DNA of 33,080 nt. Origin: Planctomycetota bacterium (GTDB taxonomy: Bacteria > Planctomycetota > Phycisphaerae > Phycisphaerales > SM1A02). The stretch is from assembly GCA_022571635.1 (NCBI GenBank), contig JACZXL010000004.1, positions 1-33,080 of the forward strand, given 5' to 3'. Of the stretch, positions 16,450 to 26,999 are shown piece after piece (the stretch's first letter is position 1; each line of letters begins with the position of its first letter). The notes under the pieces were generated by a model. That model did not search any database. It was not told the DNA's origin and saw only the letters and a list, made by a program, of their open reading frames with translations. Both the position numbers and the translations under genes were made by a program.

Positions 16450-17925
16450 ATGCCGCTCTACCCCATCGTCCTGATCGCAGTGGTGCTGGCTTGGGACGGC
16501 GGGCTGAGGCTCGCGCCCGACGATGGCTGGTCGATCGGGGCGTGGATGGTGACGGCGCTGGCCTGCGGGCCGGTCCTTGTGCTGGTGGGATTGACCCAAG
16601 GCGGCCTGTTGTGGTGTGACCGAAGGCTAGCCCGCGGCGATACGCCTCGAGCCGTACTGGTTGCCGACCGGCTGGCACACGGTGCGCGCTGGTTGATCCT
16701 GGTGAATCACGCCGTCGCCGTGCTTGTGTTCGGTTGGATGGGGACGGTGCGCAACGCCATGGGTGACCTCATTCTTCTCGACGAGTTGGTGACGATCGGT
16801 CCGCCTTTGCTGGGCTACCTCGGGACCTGGTGGGCGTACTACCCCATCGAGCGCCGCATCCGCGACGCGGTCCTGCTCCGCCGGCTGGACCTCGGCCAGC
16901 CGGTGTACCCCGCGCCGAGTCGCGGGCGGTACGTGCTGATGCAGGCTCGTCTCCATCTGCTTCTGCTCCTTGTCCCGCTCATGGTGATCCTCACCCTTTC
17001 GGAGATCATCAACCTCTCGCTGGCCCCGTGGTCGGATCGGGAATGGTTTGCCGCGGTCGCTGATCTGAGCACCCTGGCCGCCGGCCTCACGGTGTTCGTG
17101 TTTGCCCCGCTGATGGCCCGGTGGGTCCTGGGCGTCGTCCCCATGCCCGACGGCCCCATCCACGACGATCTGCTGACCGTCTGCCGCGCCCATAAGGTCA
17201 AGGTGCGGCGATTGCTCGTGTGGAAGACCGATGGCTCCATGCTCAACGCCGCGGTCATGGGTGTGTTCGGCTGGTTACGCTATGTCCTGCTCACCGACGC
17301 GCTGTTGGAGACGCTCGCTCGGCGCCAAGTCCGGGCCGTCATGGCCCACGAGATCGGGCACATCCGTCGGCATCACATGCCCTGGCTTCTCGCGACGTTG
17401 TTCGCGACGATTTTGGCCACCAGCCTCATCTTCAGCTTCGTCCTGTTCCTTTTCGCGTCGTCGGATGTTGATCCGGCTGTCGACGATCAGCCATGGGTGG
17501 ACTTTCTCGGCACCGCCGTGGCTGTCCTTGTGCTGTTCATGGTCTTCGGATGGGTCTCGCGGCGCTTCGAGCGGCAAGCCGATACCTTCGCCGTGCAACA
17601 TCTCAGCCGATGGCCCAGCCCGAGTGAAAACGAATCTGACCCGCAGGCCCAATCGCGAACTTCTGAGCGGGCTGGCGAAACGATCACCGTCGAGGCGGTC
17701 CAGACCATGCAGCAGGCGTTGCACCTGATCGCCCGGCTCCACGCGGTGGCCCCGACCCGGCACAGTTGGCGGCACGGCTCCATCGCCTGGCGGTCGGCGT
17801 ACCTGGCGTCGCTCATTGGCCGTGACGCCTCGACCCTGCCCATCGACCGGCAGGTGAGGTGGATCAAACTGGCCGCGGCCATCGCCTTGGGACTCGCCGG
17901 GGCCTATCTATTCCTCGGCGCATGA
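16450..17925 (+). CDS. M48-family membrane metallopeptidase
   Basis: 491 residues. Integral membrane zinc endopeptidase of the M48 (Ste24/HtpX) family, cleaving proteins at the cytoplasmic side of the inner membrane. The zinc site is 'MAHEIGHIRRHH' (His300, Glu301, His304), with the third ligand Glu374 in 'RRFERQADTFAV'. Before it, 'NAAVMGVFGWLRYVLLTDALL' matches the family strand 'NAxxxG...vvvtdgLL'. About seven hydrophobic segments: near 1-20, 30-52, 80-100, 112-130, 165-190, 205-228, and two after the zinc helix (312-336, 353-370). It overlaps dapF by 4 bp (ATGA), so the two are probably translated together. The overlap with lysine/murein synthesis may be operon convenience only. Confidence 0.92.
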   Translation: MPLYPIVLIAVVLAWDGGLRLAPDDGWSIGAWMVTALACGPVLVLVGLTQGGLLWCDRRLARGDTPRAVLVADRLAHGARWLILVNHAVAVLVFGWMGTVRNAMGDLILLDELVTIGPPLLGYLGTWWAYYPIERRIRDAVLLRRLDLGQPVYPAPSRGRYVLMQARLHLLLLLVPLMVILTLSEIINLSLAPWSDREWFAAVADLSTLAAGLTVFVFAPLMARWVLGVVPMPDGPIHDDLLTVCRAHKVKVRRLLVWKTDGSMLNAAVMGVFGWLRYVLLTDALLETLARRQVRAVMAHEIGHIRRHHMPWLLATLFATILATSLIFSFVLFLFASSDVDPAVDDQPWVDFLGTAVAVLVLFMVFGWVSRRFERQADTFAVQHLSRWPSPSENESDPQAQSRTSERAGETITVEAVQTMQQALHLIARLHAVAPTRHSWRHGSIAWRSAYLASLIGRDASTLPIDRQVRWIKLAAAIALGLAGAYLFLGA

Positions 17926-18818
17926 ACCAACACCACGCGCCGACGATGAGACCAACCCCCATGGTGCGCTTCACCAAGATGCACGGCCTCGGCAACGACT
18001 ACATCTATGTCAACGGTTTTACCGAAACCGTCGCTGATCCTGCGTCGTTATCGCGCGCCATCTCCGATCGACACACCGGCGTCGGCGGCGATGGCTTGAT
18101 CCTTATCCTCCCGCCCCAGAACGGTGTCGAGGCCGATCTGCGTATGCGCATGTTCAATGCCGACGGCTCTGAATCTCAAATGTGCGGTAACGGCATCCGC
18201 TGCGTTTGCAAGTACGCCCACGATCACGGTTTGTCCACCGCCAAACCCATGCGCATCGAGACCGGCGCCGGCGTGTTGGCGCTCGATTACACCGTCAACG
18301 GCCACGGGGAGGTCGAGACCGTGACCGTCGACATGGGTGAGCCGACCCTCGAACTTGCCGCGATTCCCGTCGATGCGAAACACTTGGATGGTTCCGAAGA
18401 ATCGACGCACCGCTTCACCGTCGATCGTGAATCACTCGTAGCGACGTTCGTCTCGATGGGTAATCCGCATGCGATTATCTTCGTCGATGATGTGGCCGGG
18501 ATTGATTTGTTGCGCCTCGGTCCGCCAATCGAAACGCACCTAGCCTTTCCCCAGCGCATCAACGTTCACTTCGTCCAAGTAACTTCCGTCAGCGAAGTGA
18601 CGATGCGCTCCTGGGAACGCGGAAGCGGCGCGACACGAGCCTGCGGCACCGGCGCGTGCGCCGTGTGCGTGGCCGGCGTCGTCGGGAATCGCACCGATCG
18701 CAAACTGCGTGTGCATCTCCCCGGCGGCGATTTACAGTTGAACTGGGACGAACAAACCAATCACGTTTTCATGACCGGCCCCGCCGTCGAAGTCTTCACC
18801 GGCGATTGGCCCATGTAA
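17922..18818 (+). CDS. dapF: Diaminopimelate epimerase
   Basis: 298 residues. Converts LL- to meso-diaminopimelate, for lysine and murein synthesis, in the cytoplasm; a PLP-independent two-cysteine epimerase. 'FTKMHGLGNDYIYV' opens the domain; Cys88 in 'ADGSESQMCGNGIRC' and Cys241 in 'GSGATRACGTGACA' are the catalytic pair, one in each half. I chose the ATG at 17922 because it overlaps the M48 stop by 4 bp; ATGs at 17946 and 17961 are possible, and the last fits the family start best. The C-terminus 'DWPM' and the stop TAA at 18816 lie inside the first unit of a REP repeat array, so the present end was probably created by that repeat. Confidence 0.95.
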   Translation: MNQHHAPTMRPTPMVRFTKMHGLGNDYIYVNGFTETVADPASLSRAISDRHTGVGGDGLILILPPQNGVEADLRMRMFNADGSESQMCGNGIRCVCKYAHDHGLSTAKPMRIETGAGVLALDYTVNGHGEVETVTVDMGEPTLELAAIPVDAKHLDGSEESTHRFTVDRESLVATFVSMGNPHAIIFVDDVAGIDLLRLGPPIETHLAFPQRINVHFVQVTSVSEVTMRSWERGSGATRACGTGACAVCVAGVVGNRTDRKLRVHLPGGDLQLNWDEQTNHVFMTGPAVEVFTGDWPM

Positions 18819-19042
18819 AGCCGCCGGCAGTGCCGGCGGGAAACGCTGGCCCCTGTAAAGCCGCCGGCAGTGCCGGCGGGAAACGCGCCCGTCACGACGA
18901 TCGACTCCCGTTCGTCGCGAGCCGCTGCTCGCGGCTTTACAACGGACTCGCGTCTGTAAAGCCGCCGGCAGTGCCGGCGGGAAACGCGCCCGTCACGACG
19001 ATCGACTCCCGTTCGTCGCGAGCCGCTGCTCGCGGCTTTACA
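18814..19042. repeat. REP/BIME array, left of the transposase
   Basis: Five repeat units of two kinds. Type A (TGTAAAG, then CCGCCGGC-AGT-GCCGGCGG, then GAAACGC) at 18814-18846, 18854-18886 and 18955-18987. Type B, in reverse orientation (CGCGAGC-CGCT-GCTCGCG, then GCTTTACA), at 18916-18941 and 19017-19042. Read backwards, B also starts TGTAAAGCCGC, so A and B are inverted REPs with a common foot but different hairpin heads. Linkers between A and B are about 30 bp and nearly identical. This is the layout of bacterial BIMEs, mobilised by RAYT enzymes. Confidence 0.92.
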
Positions 19043-19048
19043 TCTTGT

Positions 19049-19585
19049 ATGATGGACGCGATGCCGCGCACCATCGGATATCACGTTGTCAAATCGGGGT
19101 ACGGCTTGTGGTTGCCGGGCGATGACCGTGGATCATGGTCGGAGGCGTGGGACGCCGAGATTGGCTTCATTGAACCGCACACGCTGCACGAGGGCGATCC
19201 CGTTCGACAGCGCATGGCCCGGGAGCGGATGATCCATCCGCCGGTGCATCTGACCGACGCGATGATCGACGCCGTTGCCGCTGCTCTTGCGTTATGCGTT
19301 GATCGATCGGGCGGCGGCCTGTCAATCGTCGCGGTGACGATCCAACCCACGCACATGCACCTGTTGATCCCATATTCCGGGCGCGATATCCACCGTACCG
19401 CGCGTTGGATCGCCGATCAGACGACCAAGGCTGTTCATCGGACCACCGACCACCTCGGCCCGATTTGGTCCAAGGGAAAGTGGTGCTCGTACGTGTTCGA
19501 TCAGTCGCATTGGCACAACACGATGCAGTACATCCAAAGACATGATCCCGCGGCACGTCCATTTTCGTTCGTCACCCCCATGTAA
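19049..19585 (+). CDS. REP-associated tyrosine transposase (RAYT, IS200-like Y1 family)
   Basis: 178 residues. Single-stranded DNA transposase of the Y1/HUH group. It opens with 'GYHVVKSGYGLWLPGDDRGS', typical of the planctomycete branch; the HUH motif is 'IQPTHMHLLIP' (His102, His104) and the catalytic tyrosine is Tyr161 in 'WHNTMQYIQRHDP'. All catalytic residues are present, so the enzyme looks intact. ATGs at 19049, 19052 and 19061 are all in frame; no ribosome site is visible because the repeat array reaches to 19042. The gene is flanked on both sides by REP hairpins, as usual for RAYTs, which process REPs rather than an IS with fixed ends. The stop TAA at 19583 lies in the first repeat unit of the right array. 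Confidence 0.92.
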   Translation: MMDAMPRTIGYHVVKSGYGLWLPGDDRGSWSEAWDAEIGFIEPHTLHEGDPVRQRMARERMIHPPVHLTDAMIDAVAAALALCVDRSGGGLSIVAVTIQPTHMHLLIPYSGRDIHRTARWIADQTTKAVHRTTDHLGPIWSKGKWCSYVFDQSHWHNTMQYIQRHDPAARPFSFVTPM

Positions 19586-19787
19586 AGCCGCCGGCAGTGC
19601 CGGCGGGAAACGCGCCCGTCACCGCGATTGACTCCCGTTCGTCGCGAGCCGCTGCTCGCGGCTTTACAACGGACTCGCGTCTGTAAAGCCGCCGGCAGTG
19701 CCGGCGGGAAACGCGCCCGTCACCGCGATTGCCCCCGTTCGACGCGAGCCGCTGCTCGCGGCTTTACAACGGACTCGCGGCTTTACA
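19581..19787. repeat. REP/BIME array, right of the transposase
   Basis: Type A units at 19581-19613 and 19682-19714; type B (reverse) at 19643-19668 and 19743-19768; and a half B unit at 19774-19787 (CTCGCGGCTTTACA). Linkers resemble those on the left but share CACCGCGATT instead of CACGACGATC, so the two arrays have diverged as blocks. The array ends 38 bp before the M20 peptidase start. Confidence 0.92.
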
Positions 19788-19825: not shown

Positions 19826-21064
19826 ATGCCGCTGACCGATATTGATCGTCGCCTGTGTGAACTGATCGACGCCCGCGCGGATCAACTGCTCGCGCAGCTT
19901 GTTGAGCACGTCGCCATCCCCACCGGGCACAACTACACGACCGGATTGGATCAGTACCGCGATGTACTGATCCATCGACTCTCTGCTCTCGGCGCAGTCA
20001 TCGAGCACATTCCGGGTGAGCCGCGCCCACAATGGCTTGAGCAACCGGGCGCGGGATCTGCATCACCTGCATCACAGGCGTCGATCCCGCCGGTGGTGTT
20101 GGCAAAGCACCATTCAGGTACATCGCCTTCCATACTGATCGTCGGCCATCTCGACACCGTTCACGATCCGCACGGATCGTTCCAGAAACTGAACGTCGAT
20201 CGCTCGGCCGGTATTGCCGTTGGCCCCGGCTGTGTGGACATGAAAGGCGGCGTGCTGATTGCGATCACGGCGCTGGAAGTCTTGGCCGAAGCCGGCGTTG
20301 ACCTGAACTGGACGGTGCTTCTCAATAGCGACGAAGAGATGGGTTCGTTTCACTCTGAAGCGGCGCTGCGCGAAGCCGCGAGCGGCCATGATTTGGGTAT
20401 TGTGGTGGAGCCGGCGCTCGCGGATGGATCGCTGGCTATCGAGCGCATGGGTTCGGGCCAATTCAAGATCGAAGTTCACGGCCGATCCGCTCACGTCGGC
20501 CGGGCGTTTGCCGATGGCGAAAGCGCCGTCAACAAACTGGCCCAGATCATCACCGCATTGAGCAAACTCGCTGATCCCGATCACGGGATGATCGTGAATG
20601 TAGGTCCATTACAAGGCGGCGCTGCGACCAACATCGTCGCGGATTATGCGGCATGTTGGGGTAACGTGCGTTTTGCAGATGCCCAAAAGGGCGAACAACT
20701 CGCGGTTGCGATCGATGCGCAATCGACGTCCGCCGATGCGATGCCGCGGGTGGTTGTGCATCGAAATTGGAACCGTCCCGCCAAGCCGCAGACCGAGGCG
20801 GTGCGCCAGTTCGCGCAGGCGGCGGCGGCGACGGCCGACGATCTGGATCAGTCGCTGCCGTTCGCCTCAACCGGCGGCGTTTGCGATGGCAACATCCTTC
20901 AGGCCGTGGGCCTGCCCACGCTCGACACGCTCGGCGTTCGTGGCGGGAACCTGCACCGCCCCGACGAGTTCGTCGAGCTATCAAGCCTGGTCGAGCGCTG
21001 CCAACTCCTGGCCGTGCTGCTGGCGAGAATCGCTGACGGGCGTGTGAGAATCCCTGCCCGCTAA
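19826..21064 (+). CDS. M20-family peptidase/deacylase, carboxypeptidase G2-like
   Basis: 412 residues. Di-zinc hydrolase of amide bonds in small N-acyl amino acids. Zinc ligands and catalytic residues: 'LIVGHLDTVHDP' (His108, Asp110), 'GPGCVDMKGGVLI' (Asp138), 'LLNSDEEMGSFHSE' (Glu170, Glu171), Glu in 'GIVVEPAL', and a C-terminal His in 'GVRGGNLHRPDEFVEL'. 'HGRSAHVG' marks the dimerisation domain. 'NSDEEMGSFHS' and the neighbouring helices are closer to carboxypeptidase G2, which releases glutamate from N-acylglutamates, than to DapE. Beside astA and astD it may hydrolyse N-succinylglutamate, replacing AstE (inference). The start at 19826 fits the family; an ATG at 19787 is possible. No Shine-Dalgarno. 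Confidence 0.88.
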   Translation: MPLTDIDRRLCELIDARADQLLAQLVEHVAIPTGHNYTTGLDQYRDVLIHRLSALGAVIEHIPGEPRPQWLEQPGAGSASPASQASIPPVVLAKHHSGTSPSILIVGHLDTVHDPHGSFQKLNVDRSAGIAVGPGCVDMKGGVLIAITALEVLAEAGVDLNWTVLLNSDEEMGSFHSEAALREAASGHDLGIVVEPALADGSLAIERMGSGQFKIEVHGRSAHVGRAFADGESAVNKLAQIITALSKLADPDHGMIVNVGPLQGGAATNIVADYAACWGNVRFADAQKGEQLAVAIDAQSTSADAMPRVVVHRNWNRPAKPQTEAVRQFAQAAAATADDLDQSLPFASTGGVCDGNILQAVGLPTLDTLGVRGGNLHRPDEFVELSSLVERCQLLAVLLARIADGRVRIPAR

Positions 21065-21185
21065 GCGATTGCGACTGTGGCTGTCCACATGCTCCGCCGA
21101 TAAAGAAGATCAGCCGGTCGATGTCGGATAGGATGCGCCGGATTCTTCGATCGAACCGGCACGCCCGGTGGAGTACGCCTTGACA

Positions 21186-22607
21186 ATGACCCCACGCACC
21201 TCAGAAATCACCGCTGCGAAAGCGTTGGCCCAAAGCGCGGGCCTCAACGACGCGATCCAAACGATTATCGCAGAATTGGTCGAGGTTCAATCGACGCTCG
21301 TTGGTGCTCGCCCCGCCGTAGATGATCTGAAACAGTCATACGAAGATGCCCTGGCGCGGTACGGTGAATTACGCGGTCGCCCGGCGCTGTACCCCTATAT
21401 CGGCTCCGGCATCGGGAACGGCCCGCTGGTAGAGTTGGCGGACGGATCGGTCAAGTGGGACATGATCAACGGCATCGGCGTCCACATGTTCGGGCACGGC
21501 GACCCGGACTTGATCGAAACCGCGCTCCGAGCCGCGCTGAGCGACGTCGTCATGCACGGCAACCTCCAGTTCAACGCTGAGGTGATCGACTTCGCAGAGT
21601 TGATCGTCGCCGAGGCGAGTCGAAGCTCCGATCTCAAGTATTGTTTTCTCACCAACTCCGGCACCATGGCCAACGAATCGGCGCTGAAGGTGTGCGCGCA
21701 GAAGCACGATGCCGCGCCGCGCGTCCTTGCCTTCGCTGACAATTTCATGGGGCGATCCACCACGATGTCGCAGATCGGCGACTCATCCGCGAATCGTGTC
21801 GGCGTTCCGCTGAATGTACAGGTTGACTACATGCCGTTTTATGATCCCGAGCACGGTGATCGCTCAACGGAGTACGCCCTGCGCCAATTGCAGCAATACA
21901 TCCACCGCTATCCGAATCAGCATTCGTGCTTCGTGATGGAACTTGTGCAAGGCGAGGGCGGGTTCAACATCGCGCCGCGCGAGTTCTTCGTCCCGTTGAT
22001 GGAGGCGTGCAAAGCGAACGGCATCGCGGTGTGGATCGACGAGATTCAGACTTTCGGACGCACCAACGAAATGTTCCACTTCGATGCGTTGACGCTCGGC
22101 GAATACGTGGATGTGGTCACGATCGGAAAGATGAGTCAGATCTGCGCGTGTCTGTACACCGAGGCGTACAACCCCAAGCCGGGCTTGCTCAGTGGGACGT
22201 TCGTCGGCTCGGCCGTCGGGTTGCAGGTCGGTCGCCGATCACTACAACGCCTGCGCGAGGGCGCGTACTACGGTCCCAACGGGAAGATCGCAAAGTTACA
22301 CCGTGCGTTTTGTGAACATGCCGAGGCGCTCGTTACCCAGCACCCGGAGTGGTTCAGTCCGATTCCGCACGCAAGCGGGTTCTACGGCGGCGTGGGCGGG
22401 ATGATGCGTATGACGCCCTTCGGCGGTGACAAGAAGACGATTACCAGTGTACTACGAATCATGTTCGACGAAGGCGTCATTGCGTTTTACTGCGGCCACG
22501 ATCCGTATCACATCCGGTTCCTCCCCCCCGTCGGAGTGATGGAGCCGCAACAGTTTGACGATGTGTTCGAGATCGTCGAGTCCTCGTTCGCCAAAGCCGC
22601 ATCTTAG
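21186..22607 (+). CDS. Class III (PLP) aminotransferase, putative succinylornithine transaminase
   Basis: 473 residues. PLP-dependent fold type I aminotransferase of the ornithine/acetylornithine group. Visible: 'FLTNSGTMANESALKVC' (cofactor phosphate loop), 'ELVQGEGGFNIAP', 'WIDEIQTFGRT' (Asp285 pairs with the PLP ring nitrogen), and Lys315 in 'VTIGKMSQICACLY' as the PLP lysine. About 60 residues at the N-terminus are extra compared with AstC/ArgD. Placed between the M20 gene and astA, it would fit transamination of N-succinylornithine to the semialdehyde (inference). Start: ATG at 21186; a TTG at 21180 has a better-spaced GGAG (21170-21173). The gene belongs to a subgroup I cannot name exactly. 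Confidence 0.88.
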   Translation: MTPRTSEITAAKALAQSAGLNDAIQTIIAELVEVQSTLVGARPAVDDLKQSYEDALARYGELRGRPALYPYIGSGIGNGPLVELADGSVKWDMINGIGVHMFGHGDPDLIETALRAALSDVVMHGNLQFNAEVIDFAELIVAEASRSSDLKYCFLTNSGTMANESALKVCAQKHDAAPRVLAFADNFMGRSTTMSQIGDSSANRVGVPLNVQVDYMPFYDPEHGDRSTEYALRQLQQYIHRYPNQHSCFVMELVQGEGGFNIAPREFFVPLMEACKANGIAVWIDEIQTFGRTNEMFHFDALTLGEYVDVVTIGKMSQICACLYTEAYNPKPGLLSGTFVGSAVGLQVGRRSLQRLREGAYYGPNGKIAKLHRAFCEHAEALVTQHPEWFSPIPHASGFYGGVGGMMRMTPFGGDKKTITSVLRIMFDEGVIAFYCGHDPYHIRFLPPVGVMEPQQFDDVFEIVESSFAKAAS

Positions 22608-22649
22608 TCTCCCTAACCCCTAACTCCTGATCCCCGACTCCTTCCCCCA
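22608..22649 (+). repeat. Degenerate heptamer tandem repeat
   Basis: Six consecutive 7-bp units starting directly after the aminotransferase stop, consensus about RAYYCCT (AACCCCT, AACTCCT, GATCCCC, GACTCCT). Related to the repeats at 7914-7975. The pyrimidine-rich tract replaces the place where a ribosome site for astA would be. Confidence 0.6.
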
Positions 22650-22652
22650 CTC

Positions 22653-23750
22653 ATGTTCCTCATTCGCCAAACCACGGTCGACGACGCATCCACGCTGCTG
22701 AAGCTGGCGAAGATGGTGCATTTCATCAATCTGCCCGCTGATCCGGACATCATTCGCACCAAGATCGTGCGGTCGCGCAAGAGTTTCGCCGGCAAGGCTG
22801 ACAGCGATCGTGAGCGCGAGTTCATGTTTGTGATTCAGGACACAGAAACGGGGAACGTGATCGGGACGTCATCAATCGTGTCCGTGGTGAGCTGGCCGGG
22901 TCATCCCCATACGTACTTCCAAGTCAGGAAGCGCGAGCACTACAGCGATGACCTTCAGACCGGTCAGGTGCACACCACGCTCGAATTCGGAACGGACGAA
23001 ACCGGGCCGTCGGAGATCGGCGGCTTGATTCTCGGGCCGTCATACCGCGGCCACAAAGACAAGCTCGGTATGCAGTTGAGCCTGGTCCGATTCCATTTCA
23101 TTGGCCTGAACCGCCGGTGGTTCGCCGATCGCATCCTCGCCGAGATGATGGGTCCGCTCACCCCGGATAGCCGCAATCTGTTGTGGGAGTATCTCGGCCG
23201 GCGATTCATCAACCTCAGCTTCACCGAGGCCGACCGGTTCTGTCAGCGCTCCAAGGAATTCATTACGTCGTTGTTTCCCAAGGGCGAGATTTATCTGTCG
23301 CTGTTGCCGCCGGAGGCGCGCAATCTCGTCGGTCGCGTGGGTACGGAGACGGAACCGGCGAAACGATTGCTCGAGCGGATCGGTTTTGCGTATGAGGGGC
23401 GCATCGATCCGTTCGACGCCGGACCATACCTTGAGGCGAACGTCGATGACATCTCCCTGGTCAAGACGACGAAATCCGTCACGCTCAAAGGGACAGGGAC
23501 GAACTTCTCCAGTGTTGGCTTTGTCAGTACACACGGCGCTGCCGGCTTCCGCGCCATGCGCTGTCCGATCGCTGAATCCGACGATGGCGTGTCGATCCCC
23601 CCGGAAGTCGCGGACGTGTTGGAGGTCAAGCCGGGCGAGTCGATCGGTGTGACCCCGCTCCCAATCCCGATTCCATCGGGAAGCGATTCCGCCAACAAGT
23701 CGGCCGATGAACGCGCAGCCTCGAGCACCTCGCCCGAGGCCGTGCGGTGA
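22653..23750 (+). CDS. astA: Arginine/ornithine N-succinyltransferase (AstA family)
   Basis: 365 residues. Transfers succinyl from succinyl-CoA to the alpha-amino group of arginine or ornithine; GNAT-like fold. Hallmarks: 'MFLIRQTTVDDASTLLKLA', 'SRKSFAG', 'GPSEIGGLILGPSYRGH', 'LVRFHFIGLNRRWFADRILA', 'SRNLLWEYLGRRFINLSF' and 'EFITSLFPKGEIYLSLLP'. The family is usually about 340 residues; the extra tail (about 335-365) is Ser/Pro/Ala-rich and includes residues encoded by an inserted 17-bp palindrome (23666-23682). No Shine-Dalgarno is visible in the pyrimidine-rich repeat before the ATG. Overlaps astD by 4 bp. Whether arginine or ornithine is preferred cannot be read from the sequence; the missing astB favours ornithine. 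Confidence 0.93.
   Translation: MFLIRQTTVDDASTLLKLAKMVHFINLPADPDIIRTKIVRSRKSFAGKADSDREREFMFVIQDTETGNVIGTSSIVSVVSWPGHPHTYFQVRKREHYSDDLQTGQVHTTLEFGTDETGPSEIGGLILGPSYRGHKDKLGMQLSLVRFHFIGLNRRWFADRILAEMMGPLTPDSRNLLWEYLGRRFINLSFTEADRFCQRSKEFITSLFPKGEIYLSLLPPEARNLVGRVGTETEPAKRLLERIGFAYEGRIDPFDAGPYLEANVDDISLVKTTKSVTLKGTGTNFSSVGFVSTHGAAGFRAMRCPIAESDDGVSIPPEVADVLEVKPGESIGVTPLPIPIPSGSDSANKSADERAASSTSPEAVR
23666..23682. repeat. 17-bp palindrome inside astA, identical to 612-628
   Basis: TCCCGATTCCATCGGGA, 7-bp stem and TCC loop, in the variable C-terminal tail of the AstA-like gene, in frame and without a stop. Exact match to the first of two copies at 612-661. Confidence 0.8.
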
Positions 23751-25246
23751 CCGATGCGCTCACTCATCCGCCCAGTGATTATGTCGGTGGCCGTTTCCTG
23801 CCAATCGCAGGTGATTCGATCGTCTCGACAAACCCGGCCGAGCCGCAGCACGTCATCTGGCAGGGGCAGCCGGCGCCCCAACACGCTGACGACGCTGTAC
23901 ACGCAGCGCGGCAGGCGCTGCCCGAGTGGTCGGGCGGGTCGTTTGATGACCGTATAGAGGCGCTTCGCCGTTGGCAACAGGTCGTTCGTGATCACGCTGA
24001 TCGTCTCGCCGCGCTGATTACCGACGAGATGGGAAAGACGCTTGCTGAGTCTCGCTTCGAGGCGCAGGCGGTTGCGGCGAAGATCGACGTCACGCTGGAC
24101 GACGTCAGCCTCGGTCGAGTGCGTGAATATGAGGTGGCGGTGACGGAATCTCGCGCCGGTCATTGCCGGTTCAAGCCGCACGGCGTGATGGCGGTCATTG
24201 GGCCGTTCAACTTCCCCGCTCATCTTCCAAACGGACATTTCGTGCCCGCGCTGCTGCTGGGCAACACGATCGTCTTCAAGCCGTCGGAAAAGACGCCGGC
24301 CGTGGGGCAGTTGCTCGCGGAATTGATGCACGAAGCCGAACTCCCGCCCGGGGTGTTCAACGTTGTCCAAGGCGGCGCTGACGTCGCGTCGCGCCTGGTC
24401 GAAGGCGACGGCATCGACGGCATTCTTTTCACCGGCTCATGGTCCGTGGGGCGGAAGATCCTTCACGCCAATCTCGATCGCCCGGGGCGCATCATTGCGC
24501 TGGAAATGGGCGGGAATAACCCAGCCGTGGTTATGGATGACTGTCACCTGAAGCAGGCGGTCATCGAATGTGTGCGAGCATCGTTCGCTACAACCGGCCA
24601 ACGGTGCACGTGTACGAGGCGGATCATCGTGCAGCGCCCAATTGCGGAGCGGTTCATCCCCGCGTTTTGCAAAGCCGCCTCCACATTGCTCATCGGCCCC
24701 GGCGCTTCGGCCGAGCCTGTCTTCATGGGACCGCTCATCTCCGATGCCCCGGTGCAGGGTGTGCTTGATTTCCAACGAGACCTTGCGAGGGCCGGCGGAC
24801 GGGTCCTGGTGGAAGCAACCGCGATGGATCGGGCCGGCCATTTCATCACGCCGGGCGTCGTTGAAGTTGACCGCTTCAGTCTCGATCGAGATTGCGAGGT
24901 CTTCGGTCCATTCGTGCAGATCGCGATCGTGGATGATCTCGATCAGGCCATCGAGCAGGCCAACGCGACGCGCTACGGATTGGCCGCCTCGATCTTCACG
25001 ACCGACGATCAGGCGTATGAGGACTTCTTCCGCGGCGTCAAGGCGGGATGTATCAATCGAAACACGGGCACGGCCGGCGCGAGCGGCACGCTTCCCTTCG
25101 GCGGGCTCGGTCACAGCGGCAACCACCGCCCCGCCGCCGCGTTCGCTGTGGACTACTGCGCCTATCCGATCGCGAACATGGTGGAAACGTCGGCTGACGT
25201 GGAGGTGCCGGGCGGTATTCATTGGGATGACCGGTGGGTGAACTGA
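23747..25246 (+). CDS. astD: Succinylglutamate-semialdehyde dehydrogenase (AstD)
   Basis: 499 residues from a GTG that overlaps the astA stop (GTGA), indicating translational coupling. NAD-dependent aldehyde dehydrogenase. 'GVMAVIGPFNFPAHLPNGHF' and 'GNTIVFKPSEKTP' are characteristic of AstD rather than general ALDHs; 'ILFTGSWSVG' binds the cofactor; Glu253 in 'ALEMGGNNPA' and Cys287 in 'TTGQRCTCTRR' are catalytic. 'RCTCTRR' is very close to the AstD form 'RCTCARR'. It oxidises N-succinylglutamate semialdehyde to N-succinylglutamate. The C-terminus 'GIHWDDRW' is usual for the family. High confidence by its position next to astA. Confidence 0.94.
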   Translation: MTDALTHPPSDYVGGRFLPIAGDSIVSTNPAEPQHVIWQGQPAPQHADDAVHAARQALPEWSGGSFDDRIEALRRWQQVVRDHADRLAALITDEMGKTLAESRFEAQAVAAKIDVTLDDVSLGRVREYEVAVTESRAGHCRFKPHGVMAVIGPFNFPAHLPNGHFVPALLLGNTIVFKPSEKTPAVGQLLAELMHEAELPPGVFNVVQGGADVASRLVEGDGIDGILFTGSWSVGRKILHANLDRPGRIIALEMGGNNPAVVMDDCHLKQAVIECVRASFATTGQRCTCTRRIIVQRPIAERFIPAFCKAASTLLIGPGASAEPVFMGPLISDAPVQGVLDFQRDLARAGGRVLVEATAMDRAGHFITPGVVEVDRFSLDRDCEVFGPFVQIAIVDDLDQAIEQANATRYGLAASIFTTDDQAYEDFFRGVKAGCINRNTGTAGASGTLPFGGLGHSGNHRPAAAFAVDYCAYPIANMVETSADVEVPGGIHWDDRWVN

Positions 25247-25251
25247 CCGCG

Positions 25252-25968
25252 ATGCTCTCGTTCATCATCCCCGCCTACAACGAAGAGGTGCTGATCGCAG
25301 CGACGGTCAAGCAGTTGCAAGTCTCGGCCGAGGCCCTGGGGCGTGACTACGAGATCATCGTTGTCAACGACGCCTCAACTGATCGCACAGCGCAGCTCGC
25401 CGAGGCGGCCGGCGCTCGGATCATCAATGTCAAGAATCGCCAGATTGCGGCGACACGAAATGCCGGCGCTGCGAATGCGGCGGGCGACGTGTTCATCTTC
25501 GTTGATGCGGACACGCTGGTACCTGCTGCGACGCTCCGCGCTGCGATTCGTGCGCTTGAAAGGGGCGCGATCGGCGGCGGGGCTACGATCAAATTCAGAG
25601 GTCGACTCTCACTCGCAGCACATTTCACCGCGGCGATCGTTCAACAGCTCATGCACCTCAGTGGAATGGTCGGCGGATGCTTCATGTTCATGTCGCGCAG
25701 CGCATTCGAGGCGGTCGGCGGGTTCGATGAGGCGTTCTATGCCTCGGAAGAAGTGTGGCTCGCGATGGCGCTGCGTCGTCGAGGGCGATTCGTGGTCTTG
25801 ACCCAGCATGTCCAAACGTCCGGACGCAAGCTCCGACAAAACGGCGTCTTTCAATTGCTCAAGGGTGGTGCGGTCATAATGCTCCGAGGCCCGGCAGGCG
25901 TCCGAAAACGTGACGGTTTGGATCTGTGGTACGACGGCCGGCGCGAAGAAAAGGGCCAGGACGACTGA
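25252..25968 (+). CDS. GT2-family glycosyltransferase
   Basis: 238 residues from the ATG at 25252; a GTG at 25234 inside astD would add six residues. GT-A fold inverting transferase: 'LSFIIPAYNEEVLIAATVKQ', 'YEIIVVNDASTDRTAQLAE', the DxD motif in 'VFIFVDADTLVP', and 'VGGFDEAFYASEEVWLAMAL' with the catalytic-base region. No transmembrane domain is evident apart from short hydrophobic stretches. The nucleotide sugar and acceptor are unknown. It lies 5 bp after astD and 47 bp before a ureohydrolase gene, i.e. inside an amino acid catabolic cluster where no sugar transfer is expected. Confidence 0.88.
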   Translation: MLSFIIPAYNEEVLIAATVKQLQVSAEALGRDYEIIVVNDASTDRTAQLAEAAGARIINVKNRQIAATRNAGAANAAGDVFIFVDADTLVPAATLRAAIRALERGAIGGGATIKFRGRLSLAAHFTAAIVQQLMHLSGMVGGCFMFMSRSAFEAVGGFDEAFYASEEVWLAMALRRRGRFVVLTQHVQTSGRKLRQNGVFQLLKGGAVIMLRGPAGVRKRDGLDLWYDGRREEKGQDD

Positions 25969-26015
25969 TAGAGGAAGCGACTTGCGTTTTGCGCCAAACC
26001 GCCGACCATGTCCAA

Positions 26016-26999
26016 ATGGCTTCCGACAAGACTCCACGAACCACCTTGCCCGATGCTCGCAAGCACCCGCGGTTTGCCGGCGTGGCGACGTTCTGCCGCT
26101 TCCCGCTGATTGATTCCGTCGATCCGAGCCGCCGGCCCGTCGATTGGGCCCTGTACGGAATCCCATTCGACGGCGGCGTGACGTACCGGCCCGGCGCGCG
26201 CTTCGGCCCCCGCGCGATTCGAGATGCGTCGCAATACATCAAGCCGGTGCATATCGAACACAACTTGAATATCGCAGAAATATTTTCGTTGGCCGACGCC
26301 GGCGACGCCCCGGTTCATCCATACTCATGCAAGGAAACCCTCCACGCCGCTTGCGGCTTCGCGCAATCCCTCGGCGACCCCAACCACACAAAGCTCCTCG
26401 CCATCGGTGGCGACCACTCAACCGCCTACGCCAACATCCGCGCGACATGGGAGCGCCGCGGCAAACCGACCGGCGGCCTGGCGCTACTCCACTTCGATGC
26501 GCACCTTGATACCTACGACATAATCTGGGACGAGAAGTGGACGCACGGCTCGCCGTTCATCCGCGCGATTGAAGATGGTTTGATCGACCCCCAGCGGATG
26601 CTCACCGTCGGTATCCGTGGTCCGGTCAATTCGGCCGACGACTTCGACTACGCTGACGAGCACGGCATCGAAGTGGTGACGTACGAGCAGTGGCGCACCG
26701 GCAACGGCCCCGAGCGAATACGAACGTTTCTCGAACGCCTCGGCGACGCTGAAACGTATCTCTCGTTCGATATCGACTGCGTTGATCCCGCCTACGCCCC
26801 CGGAACCGGGACGCCGTGCTGTGGCGGATTCACATCGGCCGAGGTCTTCGGGCTTCTGCGGCAATGTGCGGGTCTAAATCTCGTCGGGGCCGACGTCGTC
26901 GAGGTGCTTCCTGCACTGGATCACGCGAACATCACGACCCTGCTCGCCTCGCACGTGATCTTCGAAATCCTCTCGCTCGCCGCCGCCAGCGTGGCGTAG
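26016..26999 (+). CDS. Agmatinase/arginase-family ureohydrolase
   Basis: 327 residues. Binuclear manganese enzyme that releases urea from a guanidino compound. Metal ligands: His134 in 'AIGGDHSTAY', Asp161, His163 and Asp165 in 'LLHFDAHLDTYD', Asp252 and Asp254 in 'LSFDIDCVDPAYAPGTGTP'. 'YGIPFDGGVTYRPGARFGPRAIR' and 'VVEVLPALDHANITTLLAS' are agmatinase/guanidinobutyrase-type rather than classical arginase. Substrates possible: agmatine, guanidinobutyrate or arginine. At the end of an astA/astD cluster without astB, an arginase role feeding ornithine to AstA is attractive but unproven. The start at 26016 fits the family; an upstream frame to 25926 is basic and unconserved. No Shine-Dalgarno. 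Confidence 0.9.
   Translation: MASDKTPRTTLPDARKHPRFAGVATFCRFPLIDSVDPSRRPVDWALYGIPFDGGVTYRPGARFGPRAIRDASQYIKPVHIEHNLNIAEIFSLADAGDAPVHPYSCKETLHAACGFAQSLGDPNHTKLLAIGGDHSTAYANIRATWERRGKPTGGLALLHFDAHLDTYDIIWDEKWTHGSPFIRAIEDGLIDPQRMLTVGIRGPVNSADDFDYADEHGIEVVTYEQWRTGNGPERIRTFLERLGDAETYLSFDIDCVDPAYAPGTGTPCCGGFTSAEVFGLLRQCAGLNLVGADVVEVLPALDHANITTLLASHVIFEILSLAAASVA

Follow-up and report, generated by a model that had tools for sequence, protein, structure and literature searches.

A ureohydrolase in the place of AstB: a candidate urea-releasing arginine succinyltransferase pathway in Phycisphaerae

How might an arginine succinyltransferase (AST) operon work without AstB and AstE? This question is raised by a window of 33,080 nucleotides (the whole stretch of DNA that was analysed) from contig C341 of a Phycisphaerales MAG (G000; 3.5 Mb, 85% complete). 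The original prediction described a cluster of six genes, all on the plus strand, as a variant AST operon, and Pfam and NCBIfam assignments bear out that cluster at 19826-26999, where spacing is mostly tight or overlapping (AstA and AstD share 4 bp; AstD and the GT2 gene share 13 bp). The genes, with their upstream neighbour, are:

17859..18818, plus strand: DapF (TIGR00652, 302 bits), a conserved upstream neighbour outside the pathway
19826..21064, plus strand: M20 hydrolase (PF01546, 6e-21), proposed N2-succinylglutamate desuccinylase and AstE stand-in
21168..22607, plus strand: class III aminotransferase (PF00202, 7e-40), proposed N2-succinylornithine transaminase and AstC stand-in
22653..23750, plus strand: AstA, arginine (or ornithine) N2-succinyltransferase (PF04958, 2e-94), of a divergent Phycisphaerales clade
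23747..25246, plus strand: AstD, N2-succinylglutamate semialdehyde dehydrogenase (TIGR03240, 470 bits; NF006992, 501 bits, slightly under the cut-off of 514)
25234..25968, plus strand: GT2 glycosyltransferase (PF00535), probably an operon passenger
26016..26999, plus strand: ureohydrolase (PF00491, 2e-77), candidate AstB replacement; proposed N2-succinylarginine amidinohydrolase (urea-releasing), or arginase

The ureohydrolase starts at the ATG at 26016, within a reading frame open from 25926 and ending at 26999. The GT2 gene was considered as a pathway member and rejected, being found in genomes with AstB and with the ureohydrolase alike and missing from many. Between DapF and the M20 gene (18656-19585 and 18807-19785) lies an ORF weakly resembling a REP-associated tyrosine transposase, with a score of 27 bits where the cut-off is 80. 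Five copies of a 40-nt element carrying the GC-rich palindrome CCGCCGGCAGTGCCGGCGG flank it, together with copies of a second element; the arrangement looks like a REP/RAYT unit.

Profile searches that recovered the E. coli positive controls gave no match to AstB (PF04996) or AstE (TIGR03242) anywhere in G000, so the predicted lack of both enzymes extends from the cluster to the whole of this 85% complete genome. The ureohydrolase is the sole PF00491 gene found in G000, and the operon aminotransferase scores far under every equivalog cut-off, including those for AstC/ArgD. The missing AstB and AstE are neither an assembly gap nor chance, because the pattern recurs in many relatives. A genome scan with AstA returned 80 loci, nearly all from Planctomycetota and mostly from Phycisphaerales, and most of these loci keep M20-aminotransferase-AstA-AstD in synteny, in agreement with the expectation that this gene order would be conserved. 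DapF often lies upstream in the relatives, the ureohydrolase follows AstD in many, and the GT2 gene is found in some only. In other orders or classes of the phylum (L105, L107, and L108) the operon reads M20-aminotransferase-AstA-AstD-AstB; the cluster in the window is therefore a real AST operon, and its description as a variant one stands. Four contigs labelled Bacteroidia, Kuenenia, Limnohabitans, and Cyanobacteria (L034, L031, L045, and L077) also carry Phycisphaerales-type AstA loci and are probably misnamed or mixed MAGs.

The outgroup operons with AstB include both the M20 enzyme and the aminotransferase (the latter in the same slot, with 42–44% identity), and we therefore propose that both are members of the AST pathway, predicted to stand in for AstE and AstC, respectively. 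Other Planctomycetota have the M20 gene in AST operons that include AstB, and AstE is absent there too, which supports the predicted role of the M20 enzyme as the desuccinylase. Among 55 AstA-bearing or related genomes, 33 contained the M20 enzyme and none contained an AstE over its cut-off. The M20 metal ligands (H108, D138, E171, E195, and H377) are invariant across 16 relatives, and among solved structures the enzyme is closest to carboxypeptidase G2, which hydrolyses N-acylglutamates, taking glutamate off N-acyl compounds. By analogy, such an activity would be a good fit for succinylglutamate as the substrate.

The distribution of the ureohydrolase indicates which missing enzyme it stands for. 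Among 77 AstA-bearing genomes, 40 had only the ureohydrolase and 34 only AstB, while none had both and 3 had neither. This exclusion held in both sets of genomes: a sample of 392 Planctomycetota, in which the 25 AstA-bearing genomes of the window's class included 14 with AstB, 10 with the ureohydrolase, 1 with neither, and 0 with both; and 50 further genomes reached via AstA loci (18 AstB, 30 ureohydrolase, 2 neither, 0 both). Orthologues in the 392-genome sample, defined by at least 58% identity to the window's ureohydrolase, were found in no genome lacking AstA, where the next matches reached at most 45%. The ureohydrolase is unlinked to AstA in three genomes (G368, G278, and G384); since the ureohydrolase, AstA, and M20 genes lie far apart in the complete genome G368, the association with AstA is not due to gene proximity. 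In several relatives, the ureohydrolase occupies the very slot held by AstB in outgroup operons.

Fisher's test over the 77 rows gave 1e-18, a value that ignores relatedness. With independent pairs drawn over supported branches, the two states were opposite in all five informative pairs (p 0.06); using all branches gave 10 pairs instead of 5. Genomes with AstB and with the ureohydrolase are interleaved on the AstA tree, with 10 switches, at least 6 of which are forced by supported branches. Mutual exclusion together with this repeated switching strongly supports the conclusion that the ureohydrolase takes the place of AstB. Distant PF00491 genes downstream of AstD were considered as substitutes for the ureohydrolase, and in the two loci checked they encode formimidoylglutamase (HutG); the actual substitute in genomes without the ureohydrolase is an AstB elsewhere in the genome. 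Three AstA-bearing genomes (G401, G409, and G342, with loci L016, L026, and L101) have neither AstB nor a ureohydrolase of the window's type, reflecting either incomplete assembly or a third solution. Outside the window's class, AstB is lacking in five AstA-bearing Planctomycetota (G004, G061, G221, G354, and G374), two of which (G004 and G354) have distant ureohydrolases with 30–35% identity.

AstA itself changes little across these switches. In the closest opposite pair, L021 (AstB) and L023 (ureohydrolase), the AstA proteins are 85.5% identical; across the five chosen opposite pairs AstA differs each time at variable positions only, and no fixed AstA column separates the two states. Given the close pair and the lack of a separating column, AstA probably yields one and the same product whichever of the two enzymes accompanies it. 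To our knowledge, N2-succinylarginine is the only known substrate of AstB, so with AstA making an unchanged product, the ureohydrolase would be expected to cleave N2-succinylarginine as well. The resulting route would begin with AstA converting arginine and succinyl-CoA to N2-succinylarginine, which the ureohydrolase would hydrolyse to N2-succinylornithine and urea; the class III aminotransferase would then yield succinylglutamate semialdehyde, AstD would oxidise this to succinylglutamate, and the M20 enzyme would release glutamate and succinate. We consider it an even call that the operon encodes such an arginine-to-glutamate AST pathway, with AstB replaced by a ureohydrolase that cleaves succinylarginine.

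Features of the ureohydrolase itself are consistent with this assignment. The motifs GGDH, DAHxD, and DxDxxDP are kept, as are both metal sites and the catalytic His and Glu, and H124, D151, H153, D155, H167, D242, D244, and E286 (numbered from 26046) are invariant in 25 sequences; these are the metal and catalytic residues (compare E. coli agmatinase, PMC8125230). Profile scores were highest for GpuA (292 bits), proclavaminate amidinohydrolase (PAH; 286 bits), and GbuA (275 bits) and lower for agmatinases (226–235 bits), plant arginase (142 bits), and bacterial arginase (89 bits). An AlphaFold2 model (pLDDT 88.7) returned PAH (1GQ6) first in a fold search, followed by guanidinopropionase, with 1GQ6 and 3NIQ as the nearest structures. 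The score against the arginase model TIGR01229 was 64 bits (cut-off 228), and the carboxylate-binding Asn130 of arginase, which helps to set specificity for arginine (PMC8125230), is replaced in 37 ureohydrolase sequences by Val, Leu, Ala, or Tyr (Val in most of the family, Tyr in the window). Tyr at this position is also found in E. coli agmatinase and plant arginase (PMC8125230, PMC7370999). Tyr64 and Lys66 are conserved in a loop that shapes the active site of the neighbouring subunit and, by analogy, would line the substrate pocket; the Lys66 position is Arg in GpuA and GbuA, His in PAH, and Ala in agmatinases. These two residues would favour a substrate with a carboxylate over agmatine, with arginine and succinylarginine both compatible. 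Three points favour cleavage of succinylarginine: the nearest solved relatives are PAH and guanidino-acid hydrolases rather than arginases; the arginase residue Asn130 is not kept; and AstB, with which the ureohydrolase trades places, has N2-succinylarginine as its substrate. The ureohydrolase may thus act on a succinylated compound and not on free arginine.

The original prediction had instead placed the ureohydrolase first, as an arginase splitting arginine into ornithine and urea, with AstA acting on ornithine ahead of the aminotransferase, AstD, and the M20 enzyme. Such an order would use the same genes and produce the same mutual exclusion with AstB, and an arginase paired with a broad AstA that accepts ornithine would be compatible with the same genomic data. 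The AstA of E. coli, for one, can use ornithine as well. Both of its components have precedents, in AstO of Acinetobacter baumannii, an ornithine succinyltransferase of the AstA type that serves ornithine entry (PMC12375414), and in plant arginases, agmatinase-like ureohydrolases able to use free arginine (PMC7370999). However, AstA would then have to switch between arginine and ornithine among close relatives with no column changing in step, and the repeated swaps with AstB, which leave AstA unaltered, agree no less well with cleavage of N2-succinylarginine. Profiles and fold search, moreover, group the ureohydrolase with PAH, guanidinopropionase, and guanidinobutyrase and not with arginases, and neither Asn130 nor the Tyr191/Asn99 pair conserved in plant arginases is a feature of the family. 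We therefore regard the arginase-first order as possible but somewhat improbable.

Two further readings would dissociate these genes from arginine succinylation. The ureohydrolase could be a mere neighbour of the AST genes, an agmatinase or other guanidino-acid hydrolase of polyamine or guanidinobutyrate metabolism; it does pass the NCBIfam agmatinase cut-off, if only just (TIGR01230, 181 versus 174 bits), and GpuA and GbuA are its closest solved relatives besides PAH. Yet it has Lys66 where agmatinases have Ala, and it is confined to genomes that have AstA and lack AstB, even where unlinked (G368, G278, and G384), which makes this reading highly improbable. Still more improbable is that the substrate of the cluster is a different diamine or amino acid (e.g., lysine), with no arginine pathway involved. 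The very divergent AstA clade with its lost His229, an aminotransferase under the cut-off of every named family, and DapF upstream would suit such a role, but AstB, a succinylarginine-specific family, accompanies the same genes in 34 of the 77 genomes, and the outgroups carry all of these genes plus AstB in a single operon.

The divergence of AstA nevertheless bears on its name. The window's protein scores 210 bits against an equivalog cut-off of 391, and the Phycisphaerales clade forms a long branch, though its AST partners are present. The model (pLDDT 91) has as its best fold match 1YLE, a subunit of Pseudomonas AOST (TM 0.84–0.88). The canonical His229 (E. coli numbering; aligned position 230), which we take to be the proton donor of AstA, is Gly in the window and almost throughout the Phycisphaerales clade, whether a genome has AstB or the ureohydrolase. 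The corresponding residue of A. baumannii, H229, has been mutated as a predicted catalytic residue (PMC12375414). Because this His is lost in the clade, the substrate of its AstA appears less certain than the name implies.

Returning to succinylarginine cleavage, we see about equal chances for and against the ureohydrolase being a new activity, an N2-succinylarginine amidinohydrolase repeatedly swapped with AstB among Phycisphaerae and making their AST pathway urea-releasing; a search of openly available papers turned up none that describes a succinylarginine ureohydrolase or deals with AST in Planctomycetes. The AstB step releases CO2 and two ammonia, and exchanging AstB for a urea-releasing enzyme would alter the nitrogen yield. 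Urease is nearly absent (the alpha subunit was found in 1 of the 76 genomes searched and in none of the other 75), which makes urease an improbable route for using the urea; the cells may lose the urea or share it with their neighbours. That single urease compares with urea as the predicted product in about half of the 76. The locus would represent a recurrent exchange of two unrelated enzyme folds at one AST step. The pathway would be overlooked in metabolic models of these Planctomycetes, since the ureohydrolase is at present annotated as an agmatinase and the M20 enzyme as a glutamate carboxypeptidase or a peptidase.

The operon shares with the AST systems of E. coli (astCADBE) and Pseudomonas (aru) the joining of AstA and AstD homologues, an aminotransferase, and a hydrolase in one operon, and we infer the overall conversion to be the same as in classical AST. 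It differs in having a ureohydrolase for AstB, an M20 enzyme for AstE, and a different class III aminotransferase for AstC, so that three of the five standard enzymes have apparently been replaced by unrelated ones, and in an AstA without His229. The AstNOP operon of A. baumannii likewise has an AstA-family enzyme and no AstB of its own (PMC12375414), but it is a side operon beside a full astCADBE and has no ureohydrolase, whereas no AstB was found in the window's genome. GpuA (3NIP) and GbuA (3NIO), among the closest profile matches, resemble the ureohydrolase in their guanidino-acid substrates and in a basic residue at the Lys66 position, though those substrates are short and have no acyl-amino group; we know of neither enzyme as an AstA partner. 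PAH, the best fold match (41% identity in the fold alignment), belongs to clavulanate biosynthesis and has a beta-lactam substrate, unlike the proposed role here, with His at the Lys66 position and Asn where the ureohydrolase family has Val/Tyr157. It also accepts N-acetylarginine, which we did not use as evidence. The acid from which PAH releases urea is derived from arginine and substituted at N2, and we propose that the ureohydrolase in the window would act on a substrate of this kind.
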